Below, in pieces: positions 33,187-39,329 of a stretch of DNA of 64,000 bases. The notes beneath the pieces are model-generated. The model worked only from the letters and a program-made list of their open reading frames with translations. It did no database searches and was not told the origin of the DNA. Location of the stretch: the NCBI GenBank assembly GCA_017512725.1, contig JAFWEW010000037.1, positions 1 to 64,000 on the forward strand. Reading direction: 5' to 3'. This DNA comes from Solobacterium sp. GTDB taxonomy: Bacteria > Bacillota_I > Bacilli_A > Erysipelotrichales > Erysipelotrichaceae. Numbering within the stretch: the stretch's first letter is position 1; every line of letters starts with the position of its first letter. Made by a program: the position numbers and the translations under genes.

Positions 33187-33668
33187 CATCACCAAGGCCG
33201 ACATTCAGAGTCATGAAAAACGGCTATGACCGGTTCGCGGTTGATGATGCGGTGGATCGCTACGCTTCCAGAGTTGATCAGCTCGAGAAGAAACTGACGG
33301 TTTACCAGCAGCAGCTGGAAGAGACCAACAAGCGGCTGATCAAGCTTCAGGCGGATTATCAGACACTTGAAAATTCCGTCGATGCGCAGCGGCAGGCTGC
33401 TGAGAATATCGCAAGGCTCTCCTTAAGGGAAGCCAATGAGATCATCGAGACCGCGCGGCAGAACGCGGATGCGATCATCCGGGAAAGTCTGATCACAGCC
33501 CGGCTGATCCTGACGGATCTCTCCAGGCTGTATGGAGATGCAAGCACCGTGAAGACTGCGACTCTGGCAAAACTCGAAGGGCTGATCAAAGAACTGGAGG
33601 AGTTCGAGCTCCCGAAGATGCCGGATCTCCGCTGGCTGAAAGAAGCGGAAGAAAAAATGATGCGCTGA
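33183..33668 (+). CDS. divIVA: DivIVA-family polar coiled-coil protein
   Basis: 161 residues. The N-terminal domain FRVMKNGYDRFAVDDAVDRYA is the DivIVA lipid-binding type, followed by coiled coil (about 30–95) and further helices. Members mark curved membranes at poles and septa and recruit division or growth proteins. The ATG at 33183 overlaps the ylmH stop, which decides the start against upstream codons. Shorter than B. subtilis DivIVA at the C-terminus. Confidence 0.88.
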   Translation: MTSPRPTFRVMKNGYDRFAVDDAVDRYASRVDQLEKKLTVYQQQLEETNKRLIKLQADYQTLENSVDAQRQAAENIARLSLREANEIIETARQNADAIIRESLITARLILTDLSRLYGDASTVKTATLAKLEGLIKELEEFELPKMPDLRWLKEAEEKMMR

Positions 33669-33674
33669 CTGAGG

Positions 33675-33866
33675 ACGCGCTGACCTGTATCAGAAGTAAG
33701 AGAGAGCCCGGGTATGGTGAAAACGGGACGGACGGACAGGAACAGACATCACCTCATGAGTATCCGTTGTTCCCGCGTTAAGGGAAATAATCGAGGGCAT
33801 GTGATGAACACATGAACTAAGGTGGTACCGCGTGATAAGCGTCCTTAGGCTGTAAGGACGTTTTTT
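33675..33866 (+). promoter_or_regulatory. T-box riboswitch controlling ileS
   Basis: The leader between divIVA and ileS holds a T-box: AGTAAGAGAG at the base of stem I (33695–33704), the conserved box AAGGTGGTACCGCG (33819–33832) that pairs with the tRNA acceptor end, and a terminator stem CGTCCTTA/TAAGGACG (33840–33860) followed by TTTTTT. An ATC triplet at 33762–33764 is the likely isoleucine specifier. Uncharged tRNA-Ile should favour read-through into ileS. Confidence 0.9.
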
Positions 33867-33888: not shown

Positions 33889-36603
33889 ATGGACTACAAA
33901 GACACACTGAACATGCCGAAAACGGACTTTGAGATGAGGGGAAATCTGGCAAAGAAAGAACCCGGCATTCTGGAACAATGGGAAAAGGCGGATCATTACA
34001 ATCAGATTCTTGCGCATCACAAGGGACAGCAGGCATATGTTCTGCATGACGGTCCTCCGTATGCCAACGGGAACCTGCATGCCGGCACGGCGATGAACCG
34101 CTGCATCAAGGATTTCATTACCCGTTCTCATGCGATGAGCGGATACTATACACCGTTCTTCCCGGGCTGGGATACCCACGGCCTGCCGATCGAGAATGCG
34201 ATCCAGAAACTGGGTGTGGACCGCAAGAAGCTTTCCCCGGCGGAATTCCGTTCCAAGTGTGAGGCCTATGCCCGCGAACAGCTGGCTGTTCAGATGGCGA
34301 CAGAAAAGCGTCTTGGTCAGGTGGCGGATTATGAACATCCGTATATCACGCTGAACAAGGAGTTTGAGGCACGTCAGATCCGTGCATTCGAAAAGATGGC
34401 ACTGGATGGTCTGATCTTCCAGGGACTGAAACCGATCTACTGGTCTCCGTTCAACGAAACCGCTGTCGCAGACTCGGAAATCGTCTACCGTGATGTCACC
34501 GATGCGACGATCTATCTGGCGTTCCAGGTCGCAGACGGCAAGGGAGTTCTGGACAGTGATGACTACTTTGTCATCTGGACCACAACCCCGTGGACCATTC
34601 CGAGCAACGAGGCAGTCTCCCTGCACCCGGATCTTACCTATGCAGAAGTACAGACTGAAAAGGGCAAGCTGATCTTCCTGGAATCCATGACCGACAGACT
34701 GCTCGGCGAATTCCAGCTGGAGAACAAGGGCGTGCTCCGTACTTTCAAGGGCCGTGAGCTTGAAAATATTACGTACCATCATGTTGTCCTTCCGAAGGAG
34801 TGCCCGGTAATTCTGGGTGATCACGTCACGGATGAAGACGGTACCGGATGCGTCCATACCGCCGGCGGTCATGGTCTGGATGACTATTATGTCTGCCAGA
34901 AGTACGGTATCGCACCGATCTGCTCGGTCGATGAGAAGGGCTATATGAATGAAGAAGCAGGACCGGAATGTCAGGGTCTCTTCTTCGAGGACTGCTCAAA
35001 GAAGATCATCACGATGATGAATGAAAAGGGATGCCTGCTGGCAATCAACAAGATCACCCACAGCTACCCGCATGATGACCGTCTTAAGAAGAAGGTTATC
35101 TTCCGTGCTGCCAAGCAGTGGTTCTGCTCCATCGAAAAGATTCGTACAGAACTGCTGGACCAGATTCAGAACCATGTTACATGGCATAACGAATGGGGCC
35201 AGATCCGCATGTACAACATGATCAAGGACCGCGGTGACTGGTGCATTTCCAGACAGCGTCTGTGGGGTGTTCCGATTCCCATCATCTACTGTGAAGACGG
35301 TTCGCCGATCATGGAAAAAGAAGTATTCGATAACATCGCCGATCTGTTTGAACAGTATGGATCCAATGTCTGGTTCGAGCGGGAAGCGAAGGATCTTCTG
35401 CCGGAAGGCTACACGAACCCGAAATCCCCGAACGGACAGTTCACAAAGGAATCCGATATCATGGACGTCTGGTTCGACAGCGGCTCTTCCTGGACCGAAC
35501 TGGAAGCCCGCGGCGGAGAATTCCCGTGTGATATCTACTTTGAAGGAAGCGATCAGTACCGCGGCTGGTTCAACTCTTCTCTGATCGTCGCAACTGCAGT
35601 CAAGGGCAGGGCTCCGTACAAGGAAGTTCTCAGCCATGGCTATGTCTGTGACTCCAAGGGTGAAAAGATGTCCAAGTCGGTTGGTAATGTCATCAACCCG
35701 CTTGATATCATCAACAAGAACGGTGCGGATGTATTCCGTCTCTGGGTCATGGTATCCGATTTCCGCCAGGATCTCCGTCTTGGTGAATCCAACATCAAGC
35801 AGGTCAGTGAGATGTACCGCAAGATCCGGAACACATTCCGCTTCCTGCTTGGAAACATCAATCCGCAGGACTTCAATCCGGCTTCCGATATGGTTGCCTA
35901 TGAGAACCTTGAGGCAGTTGACCGGTATATTCTGGTCCGCCTGAATGAGGTTGTAAAACAGGTGCGGGAAGATATCCTGAAATACGATTATGTATCCGTA
36001 AACAAGAACCTCATGAATTTCATGGTCAATGAGCTCAGCTCTTATTACTGTGATTTCACCAAAGATATCCTTTACTGCAATAAGGCAGACAGTGCCCGCA
36101 GACGTCAGGTGCAGACCGTTTACTGGCAGTGCACCGATGCGCTGGTGCGCATGTGGGCGCCGTTCCTGTGCTATACCGCAGAAGAGATCTGGAAGTTCTT
36201 CGGAAACAGGGAAGCGGAATCCGTTCATTATCTGGAACTTCCGACTGTGAAGGAATACGCTGACAGCGAAACTCTGAAGGCACAGTTTGAGACACTGCTT
36301 GAGGTGCGCTCTGTTGTGACAAAGGCATTGGAAGATGCACGTACGGCGGATCTGATCCACTCCGCACAGGAGGCTGCAGTTGAGATCACCTGCACGGAAG
36401 CGGATCAGAAGCTTCTGGAAGAAGGACTTGGAAAAGATCTGGCGCAGTGGCTGATCGTATCCCAGGCTTCTGTTAATACCGGTGAAGGCCGCAGTGCGGT
36501 TATCCACCGTGCTTCCGGCGTTAAGTGCCCGCGCTGCTGGAACTTCAGTGAAGAAGCAGATGAAAATGGTCTCTGCCCGCGCTGCCACGACGCAATGAAT
36601 TAA
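33889..36603 (+). CDS. ileS: Isoleucyl-tRNA synthetase with altered HIGH motif
   Basis: 904 residues, normal for bacterial type IleRS1. The PPYANG segment leads into HAGT at residues 64–67 where class I enzymes have HxGH, so the fourth position is Thr. The GWDTHGLPIE motif, the editing domain, KMSKS (593–597) and the C-terminal zinc knuckle (CPRCWNF…CPRCH) are all intact. It charges tRNA-Ile in the cytosol. Expression is governed by the T-box immediately upstream; GAAGGGAG is the ribosome site. The change is encoded clearly (CAT GCC GGC ACG) and is not a frame artefact. Confidence 0.95.
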   Translation: MDYKDTLNMPKTDFEMRGNLAKKEPGILEQWEKADHYNQILAHHKGQQAYVLHDGPPYANGNLHAGTAMNRCIKDFITRSHAMSGYYTPFFPGWDTHGLPIENAIQKLGVDRKKLSPAEFRSKCEAYAREQLAVQMATEKRLGQVADYEHPYITLNKEFEARQIRAFEKMALDGLIFQGLKPIYWSPFNETAVADSEIVYRDVTDATIYLAFQVADGKGVLDSDDYFVIWTTTPWTIPSNEAVSLHPDLTYAEVQTEKGKLIFLESMTDRLLGEFQLENKGVLRTFKGRELENITYHHVVLPKECPVILGDHVTDEDGTGCVHTAGGHGLDDYYVCQKYGIAPICSVDEKGYMNEEAGPECQGLFFEDCSKKIITMMNEKGCLLAINKITHSYPHDDRLKKKVIFRAAKQWFCSIEKIRTELLDQIQNHVTWHNEWGQIRMYNMIKDRGDWCISRQRLWGVPIPIIYCEDGSPIMEKEVFDNIADLFEQYGSNVWFEREAKDLLPEGYTNPKSPNGQFTKESDIMDVWFDSGSSWTELEARGGEFPCDIYFEGSDQYRGWFNSSLIVATAVKGRAPYKEVLSHGYVCDSKGEKMSKSVGNVINPLDIINKNGADVFRLWVMVSDFRQDLRLGESNIKQVSEMYRKIRNTFRFLLGNINPQDFNPASDMVAYENLEAVDRYILVRLNEVVKQVREDILKYDYVSVNKNLMNFMVNELSSYYCDFTKDILYCNKADSARRRQVQTVYWQCTDALVRMWAPFLCYTAEEIWKFFGNREAESVHYLELPTVKEYADSETLKAQFETLLEVRSVVTKALEDARTADLIHSAQEAAVEITCTEADQKLLEEGLGKDLAQWLIVSQASVNTGEGRSAVIHRASGVKCPRCWNFSEEADENGLCPRCHDAMN

Positions 36604-38040: not shown

Positions 38041-39132
38041 TTAAAATTCAATCTTTCGGAACTGTTCCCAGGGAAGATCTGCTTTTCCAAAGTGTCCGTA
38101 GTTGGTGGTTCTGCGGTAGATCGGTTTCTTCAGATCCAGCTCTTTGATGATGTTGGAGACGGAGAAATCAAAGTTACTTGTGATCACCTTCATCAGTTCT
38201 TCGTCACTGAGTCTGCCGGTACCAAATGTATTGATGTTGACGGAAGTGGGACGCGGTTTGCCGATCGCATAGGAAAGCTGCAGCTGAACCTTGTCCGCAA
38301 GACCGTTGGCAACAATGTTGCGGCAGACATAGCGGGCATAATAGGCAGCAGAGCGGTCAACCTTGGTCGGATCCTTGGAAGAGAAACAGCCTCCTCCGAT
38401 CGGGGCATAACCCCCATAGGTATCGACGACGATTTTTCTTCCGGTAGTACCGGAATCGCCCCAGCTTCCGCCGACGATAAACGAACCGGATGGATTGATG
38501 AAGTACTTGGTTTCCTCATCAATCAGTTTCGGATCCACAACGGGGCGGATTACCTTGTCCATGATCAGTTCCCGCAGTTCCTCCTGCGTAATATCTTTTG
38601 TGTGCTGGGTGGAAACGACAATGGTGTCGACTCTCTTAAGGACACCGTCATCATATTCCACCGTTACCTGTGTCTTTCCGTCCGGGCCAAGACGATTGTC
38701 ACCCCGGCGCACTTCTTCCAGACGTCTGGCAAGTCTGTGGGCACAGTCAATCGCAAAGGGCATATAGGATTCGGTTTCATTGCTCGCATAGCCGAACATG
38801 ATACCCTGGTCTCCTGCGGCGACCTCCTCCTGAGAGACGGCCTGATTGATCTCGGGGCTCTGCCTGTTGACCTTTACGACGACATAGTATTCTTCGTTGA
38901 AGCCGATCTCCTTGAGAACGGATTTGGCGATCGCTTCGTAGTCCAGGACCGCTTTGGTTCCAGCCTCTCCATAGATCAGGATCAGATCATCCTTGATCGT
39001 TGCCTCTACTGCCATGTGAGAATCGGGGTCCTGACGGATCGCCTCATCGAGAATGGTATCTGCGATCAGATCGCAGATCTTGTCGGGATGTCCGCTTGTG
39101 ACGGACTCTGAAGTGAAATACATTTTTGCCAT
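38041..39132 (-). CDS. metK: S-adenosylmethionine synthetase
   Basis: 363 residues, slightly shorter than E. coli MetK (384). N-terminal FTSESVTSGHPDKICD, GEAGT and the phosphate-binding GGGCFSSKDPTKVDRS are all present. It makes SAM from methionine and ATP. I set the start at ATG 39132 because AAGGAG precedes it and the protein homology begins there; the frame is open to 39297 but that part is the structured leader described separately. Transcribed divergently from the AI-2E-family permease. Confidence 0.95.
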   Translation of the reverse strand: MAKMYFTSESVTSGHPDKICDLIADTILDEAIRQDPDSHMAVEATIKDDLILIYGEAGTKAVLDYEAIAKSVLKEIGFNEEYYVVVKVNRQSPEINQAVSQEEVAAGDQGIMFGYASNETESYMPFAIDCAHRLARRLEEVRRGDNRLGPDGKTQVTVEYDDGVLKRVDTIVVSTQHTKDITQEELRELIMDKVIRPVVDPKLIDEETKYFINPSGSFIVGGSWGDSGTTGRKIVVDTYGGYAPIGGGCFSSKDPTKVDRSAAYYARYVCRNIVANGLADKVQLQLSYAIGKPRPTSVNINTFGTGRLSDEELMKVITSNFDFSVSNIIKELDLKKPIYRRTTNYGHFGKADLPWEQFRKIEF

Positions 39133-39300
39133 ATGAAAAAGCTCCTTCCTTTTGTCTTTTGAACAAGCTAGAAAGAGCTTGTGGATGAACTCTTTCTTTA
39201 TCGATGTCAGCAGTACCACCTTACAGACTTTTTTTGAAAGCAGGCTGGTATGGGGCCAACGAGCTGACTCTCTTGCCCCATTCTTGATAAAAGACATACC
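39133..39300 (-). promoter_or_regulatory. Structured metK leader, candidate SAM-sensing riboswitch
   Basis: The leader RNA can form a closing helix (TTTATC near 39291–39286 with GATAAA near 39202–39197), a second hairpin (ATGGGGC, 39281–39275, with GCCCCAT) whose loop carries GTCAG (39268–39264), and a third helix (ACCAGCC, 39249–39243, with GGTGGT). CTGAC (39210–39206) just before the closing strand complements the second hairpin's loop, giving a pseudoknot. Downstream, AGAAAGAG can pair with CTCTTTCT, and AAGCTCT can instead cover the GGAGC ribosome site. The helix order resembles SAM-clan riboswitches, but the GAGGGA and GGCAACC core strings of the S-box are absent. Confidence 0.55.
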
Positions 39301-39301
39301 T

Positions 39302-39329
39302 ATTCTGACAGAAAAATGAATCTTGTCAA
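39302..39329 (-). promoter_or_regulatory. Promoter of metK
   Basis: Minus-strand TTGACA (39329–39324) and CAGAAT (39307–39302) with 16-base spacing; transcription would start near 39295, giving a 160-base leader. Confidence 0.65.

Follow-up and report, generated by a model that had tools for sequence, protein, structure and literature searches.

The window analyzed here is a stretch of 64,000 nucleotides from Solobacterium sp., the minus strand of which carries metK, a classic SAM riboswitch target. The metK start codon (AUG) lies at 39132-39130 on the minus strand, and the leader (39130-39296, minus strand) contains a closing helix P1, a P2 hairpin, a third helix P3 and a pseudoknot formed by the P2 loop. 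The gene, its predicted promoter and the aptamer features are:

38041-39132, minus strand: metK, methionine adenosyltransferase (TIGR01034 equivalog, 485.6 bits against a cut-off of 309.4)
39302-39329, minus strand: predicted sigma-70-like promoter TTGACA-N16-CAGAAT (10/12 consensus matches)
39196-39295, minus strand: SAM-I-clan aptamer with P1, P2a/P2b, pseudoknot and P3, no P4 (RF00162, 35.3 bits; covariation in 62 leaders)
39286-39292, minus strand: P1 5' strand UUUUAUC, in which AUC corresponds to SAM-I A6-U7-C8 (covariation and pocket comparison)
39250-39281, minus strand: P2 hairpin, with P2a AUGGGGC/GCCCCAU, internal loop AA/GUUG and P2b GAG/CUC
39264-39268, minus strand: pseudoknot 5' strand GUCAG in the P2 loop (partner 39206-39210)
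39215-39249, minus strand: P3 hairpin with the SAM pocket (RF00162 alignment, covariation and pocket comparison)
39206-39210, minus strand: pseudoknot 3' strand CUGAC, between P3 and P1 (covariation)
39196-39202, minus strand: P1 3' strand GAUAAAG, with the A87 equivalent at 39201 (covariation and pocket comparison)

The predicted promoter would set the transcript start at about 39296-39294, at the strand GUCUUUU (39295-39289) that contains the P1 5' strand. It is weak on its own evidence, because the scan sees one such promoter and 0.7 are expected from shuffled sequences; a similar arrangement was seen again by eye in relatives.

In the window the P1 strands are CUUUUAUC/GAUAAAGA and those of P3 are ACCAGCCUGC...GUAAGGUGGU, the AA/GUUG internal loop of P2 is a degenerate version of the kink-turn position, and the CUGAC strand of the pseudoknot occupies the place where SAM-I has J3/4. 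There is no helix between P3 and P1: P4 is deleted in the RF00162 alignment of the window, as it is in all 62 aligned leaders. The first-pass annotation had described a closing helix, a hairpin whose GUCAG loop pairs with CUGAC, a third helix and no fourth, and all of these lie on the minus strand as it proposed. The single-strand minimum free energy of the leader gives a z of -2.4.

An alignment of 62 homologous metK leaders from the Erysipelotrichaceae, chosen by a loose motif, shows that the leader fold is far beyond chance. This choice accounts in part for the invariance of the motif bases, but not for the covariation of the helices. Standard pairs make up 93.7% of the total and both sides have changed in 15 of the 31 pairs; the covariation score is matched by none of 500 shuffles and by none of six slid versions of the fold. 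All seven pairs of P2a covary, together with two in P1 and three in P3, and the pseudoknot is paired in 99.4% of cells, with three of its five pairs changed on both sides. The kink-turn core, a tandem G.A in SAM-I, is the canonical GA/GA in 14 of the 62 leaders and AA/GG in 20, including the window. Covariation thus shows an aptamer composed of P1, P2 and P3 with a P2-loop pseudoknot and without P4, and the check in related metK leaders that the first-pass annotation had proposed bears out its view of a pseudoknotted element resembling SAM-I and SAM-IV.

The leader looks new because a scan of Rfam at curated cut-offs returns nothing there. Below these cut-offs, RF00162 (SAM-I) aligns over all 108 model positions with 35.3 bits (E 1.9e-6 in 371 bases), and the match has an E of 3.3e-4 when the window is scanned against all families and of 3.3e-6 in a single-family search of the genome, where it is the sole match. 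The score is short of the gathering cut-off of 44.4 bits, although many relatives' leaders exceed it, and the relatives with the same fold form a graded series from 35 to more than 50 bits. Model R1 gives the window aptamer 103 bits, the window being part of its training set. At E 10 the window genome gives no match to RF01725 (SAM-I/IV) or RF00634 (SAM-IV), and the T-box, SAM-II, SAM-III, SAM-V, SAM-VI and SAM/SAH models have none in the leader at the same threshold; the Rfam scan suggested at first pass therefore found SAM-I at full length, though beneath its cut-off, and no other SAM or T-box family. A T-box had been considered on account of the string GGUGGUAC, and with no T-box match in the leader this resemblance is a coincidence of a P3 strand.

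Elsewhere in the window, a T-box-like leader at 33656-33849 (plus strand; 60.2 bits, E 1.3e-10, below the RF00230 cut-off of 93) stands directly upstream of ileS (33889-36603). This appears from its sequence to be a divergent T-box that is missed by cut-off annotation.

The SAM-I bases at the pocket positions follow the T. tengcongensis numbering. The SAM-I positions within 5 angstroms of SAM are 6-8, 11-12, 44-47, 57-59 and 87 (PMC6890682). In the window C44-A45-A46-C47 is represented by C-A-G-C at 39247-39244 and U57-G58 by 39218-39217, and position 59, a C in SAM-I, is a G at 39216. Across the 62 leaders all pocket positions have the SAM-I base with the exception of 59 and 46. Position 59 is a G that pairs with C43, a swapped pair that is also found in the RF01725 consensus, and position 46 is an A in 54 leaders and a G in eight, including the window. 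All 30 of the 30 leaders that were retrieved purely by DNA similarity have the pocket strings AUCNNGA, CCA[AG]CC and GGUGG. The core of the SAM clan (CL00012), in which P1 is closed by AUC/GAU, J1/2 has G11-A12 and the P3 loop has C-A-A-C and U-G, is found in these leaders, and in the window A46 is the sole departure from it. We consider homology to SAM-I to be established by sequence, fold and pocket, and the full-length alignment and retained pocket bases favor the earlier suggestion of a SAM sensor.

The earlier idea of a new SAM-sensing class, without kinship to SAM-I, would fit the score below the Rfam cut-off, the missing P4 and the absence of the strings GAGGGA and GGCAACC. Neither string is present literally, as had been noted, but both have altered homologues, AAGAGA and ACCAGCC (ACCAACC in most relatives). 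With RF00162 aligning at full length, pocket bases kept in register and same-fold relatives grading up past the cut-off, a new class appears to be largely refuted by homology already, and we give it hardly any credence. That the fold is the same and the ligand has changed, for example to SAH, decarboxylated SAM or spermidine, would fit the G46 of the window and seven other leaders, and SAM-I variants with altered ligands exist (PMC10853860). However, G46 and A46 alternate between L078 and L079, which are 97% identical and both stand before metK, and a ligand change is therefore very unlikely. The gene is metK throughout, and the SAM-type bases that spermidine variants alter are kept in J1/2 and in the P3 loop outside position 46. 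The spermidine variant is, like this leader, a derived SAM-I aptamer, but its J1/2 and P3 internal loop are altered and its four stems are kept (PMC10853860), whereas the leader has lost P4, precedes metK and not polyamine genes, and has an unchanged J1/2 and a P3 loop unchanged but for A46.

Membership of SAM-I/IV rather than SAM-I might be argued from the P3 core, CCAACC...AAGGUGG, which is that of the RF01725 consensus, and from four genomes, out of 196 in the order, that score above the RF01725 cut-off. That model, like the leader, has no helix between P3 and P1. The window genome, in contrast, has no RF01725 match, and SAM-I/IV has a P2 without internal loop or loop pseudoknot (PMC2864571, PMC6890682), both of which are present in the leader. 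The RF01725 alignment of L102 places the P2 arm as an insertion, the leader lacks the 3' hairpin, and complementarity of the P3 loop to the 3' flank (PK-2) is no better than with shuffled flanks, 47 of 200 of which equal it; SAM-I/IV membership seems quite improbable. SAM-IV resembles the leader in P1, P2a/P2b, PK-1, P3 and the lack of P4, but the leader has neither P5 nor PK-2, and with no match to either model in the genome and no PK-2 found we rejected both identities. The closest likeness is to SAM-I (the S box), with which the leader shares P1, J1/2 (AUCAAGA), a P2 pseudoknot to the strand before P1, the CAAC/GGUG pocket of P3, a place upstream of metK and an apparent off-logic that sets P1 against a platform strand. 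It differs in lacking P4 and hence the four-way junction, in its degenerate kink-turn core, in a C-G rather than G-C pair at 43-59, in the G at position 46 of the window, in a ribosome site that forms part of the off-hairpin, and in its score below the cut-off. Because P4 is absent and the cut-off is not reached, both having been tested, we file it as a P4-less SAM-clan member closest to SAM-I. The leader is neither a canonical SAM-I riboswitch nor a new class; it is a P4-less SAM-clan aptamer without PK-2.

Between the aptamer and the start codon lie the components of a putative expression platform:

39190-39196, minus strand: anti-terminator/anti-sequestor strand GAAAGAG (platform folding and pairing comparisons)
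39171-39180, minus strand: switching strand AAGCUCUUUC, which pairs with GAAAGAG (on) or GAAGGAGCUU (off)
39154-39160, minus strand: second capture strand AAAAGAC, complementary to the 5' GUCUUUU (39295-39289)
39136-39149, minus strand: Shine-Dalgarno GGAAGGAG, which doubles as the 3' arm of the off-hairpin and precedes CUUUUU

The platform was analyzed in 43 leaders of the genus. The pairing alternatives pointed out earlier, of AAGCUCU (39180-39174) with either AAAGAG (39195-39190) or the ribosome site GGAGCUU (39145-39139), are available in the window, and CUCUUUC can pair with either GAAAGAG or the Shine-Dalgarno sequence GAAGGAG in the genus leaders. GAAAGAG shares one or two bases with P1 in these leaders; in the window the shared base is G39196, joined by A39195 if P1 forms a bulged extension. 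The off-helix extends further, in that bases just 5' of CUCUUUC covary with those just 3' of the Shine-Dalgarno sequence, giving 79 extra pairs against 40 expected in the 43 leaders. None of 1000 shuffles is as good when the register is fixed by the core alone, and none of 1000 when it is rescanned on the shuffled flanks. A hairpin that masks the ribosome site is thus shown by covariation, in agreement with the masking platform that the first-pass annotation had suggested. The hairpin loop is 19-28 nucleotides long and includes AAAAGAC, and a run of at least four U follows the hairpin before the AUG in 42 of the 43 leaders.

AAAAGAC is kept in nearly all of the genus leaders, most of which can form at least seven contiguous pairs with GUCUUUU. 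There is one clear compensatory case (L075), and the base pair flanking this helix does not covary among the genus leaders. Conservation and folding together suggest that this second capture helix probably forms. In transcripts cut in silico before the Shine-Dalgarno sequence and folded ligand-free, the on-helix has a predicted pairing probability of 0.93, capture of the P1 5' strand 0.88 and P1 0.00, and forcing P1 costs 9.8 kcal/mol on average in a model that leaves out the pseudoknot and the ligand. When P1 is forced in the 43 full leaders, pairing of CUCUUUC with its on-partner falls from 0.58 to 0.07 and with the ribosome site rises from 0.37 to 0.87.

From homology, fold, pocket and the metK gene we infer that SAM is the ligand and that the logic is that of an off-switch. 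SAM binding would presumably stabilize P1, as in SAM-I, leaving its 3' strand less free to hold CUCUUUC, which would then pair with GAAGGAG(CUU) and mask the Shine-Dalgarno sequence. Because a U-run follows at once, the same off-hairpin may in addition terminate transcription immediately ahead of the start codon. In the absence of SAM, the two P1 strands would be captured, through GAAAGAG:CUCUUUC and GUCUUUU:AAAAGAC, before the Shine-Dalgarno sequence is made, and metK would be expressed. The metK leader is thus very probably a divergent SAM-I-clan riboswitch that acts as a SAM-triggered OFF switch for metK.

Whether the off-hairpin acts by termination or by masking of the ribosome site divides the evidence, and we lean modestly towards termination. 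Purely translational control by the same aptamer, with masking and no transcription termination, is a tenable but somewhat less favored account: what is masked throughout the genus is the Shine-Dalgarno sequence itself, the loop is long for a terminator, and a simple terminator scanner calls no terminator at the leader, because the loop exceeds the length it allows. Set against this are the U-runs, the terminator-like hairpin that occupies the same place separately in outgroup leaders, and equilibrium folding, which leaves the site unexposed in the on state. In RNA ending at the AUG, the ribosome site is about 88-90% paired with P1 either forbidden or forced (masking is 0.88 in real leaders versus 0.46 in shuffled ones); since the site is masked either way at equilibrium, the on state must be kinetic or the decision transcriptional.

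Of the 36 genomes of the window's genus that were searched, about 30 have a homologous leader. When 60 relatives were searched at the DNA level, the leader turned up in 31 genomes; every one of them, the window genome among them, belongs to this genus, and no genome of another genus gave a match. All 30 fetched copies stand directly before metK. Relatives recovered with MetK include Solobacterium, Bulleidia extructa, Lactimicrobium massiliense and other Erysipelotrichaceae, and 73 of the 78 metK loci that have sufficient sequence upstream carry the element. The metK leaders L068, L069, L096, L104 and L106 have no recognizable element, suggesting that it has been lost or replaced in some lineages. 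The P4-less aptamer is also found in Anaerorhabdus, Allobaculum, Holdemanella, Faecalitalea, Breznakia and Absicoccus, where an ordinary hairpin resembling an intrinsic terminator comes next and the ribosome site is separate. RF00162 has matches in 151 of the 196 genomes of the order and passes its cut-off in 106; P4 is present in some of these matches and absent from others. Of the 392 genomes in a phylum sample, 77 are matched by a model built on the P4-less alignment, including members of other families of the class, and these matches stand before MetN-like transporters, metK and others.

Several P4-less SAM-I-like copies occur per genome at L164-L167 (genome G214, with five matches) and L169, before genes without an obvious SAM link, such as MoxR-like ATPases (L165 and L166, by eye) and uncharacterized proteins; these are possibly carried by mobile elements. 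Another such element (L177:2518-2607, minus strand) lies about 100 bases upstream of an apparent fused tandem DNA cytosine-5 methyltransferase (motifs by eye), a SAM-consuming enzyme, and in L127 and L140 elements above the RF00162 cut-off precede a look-alike, by eye, of an ECF-type transporter S component.

The open-access literature that we searched yielded no P4-less SAM-I or Erysipelotrichaceae metK riboswitch, an absence that is no proof of novelty. There is about an even chance that these leaders form a distinct P4-less SAM-I-clan subtype in Bacilli, standing between SAM-I, with its P2-loop pseudoknot, and SAM-I/IV, with its P3 core. In the Solobacterium/Bulleidia group this subtype would drive a platform in which both P1 strands are captured ligand-free and the Shine-Dalgarno sequence itself supplies the 3' arm of a terminator-like hairpin.

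These data suggest that the SAM pocket can be kept even though P4 is missing and the kink-turn weakened, and that the leader forms a link between SAM-I and SAM-I/IV in their peripheral architectures. They also suggest that standard cut-offs miss such P4-less members in a common bacterial group of the gut and rumen, and the metK gene of the window gains a putative regulator that annotation at curated cut-offs would not report.
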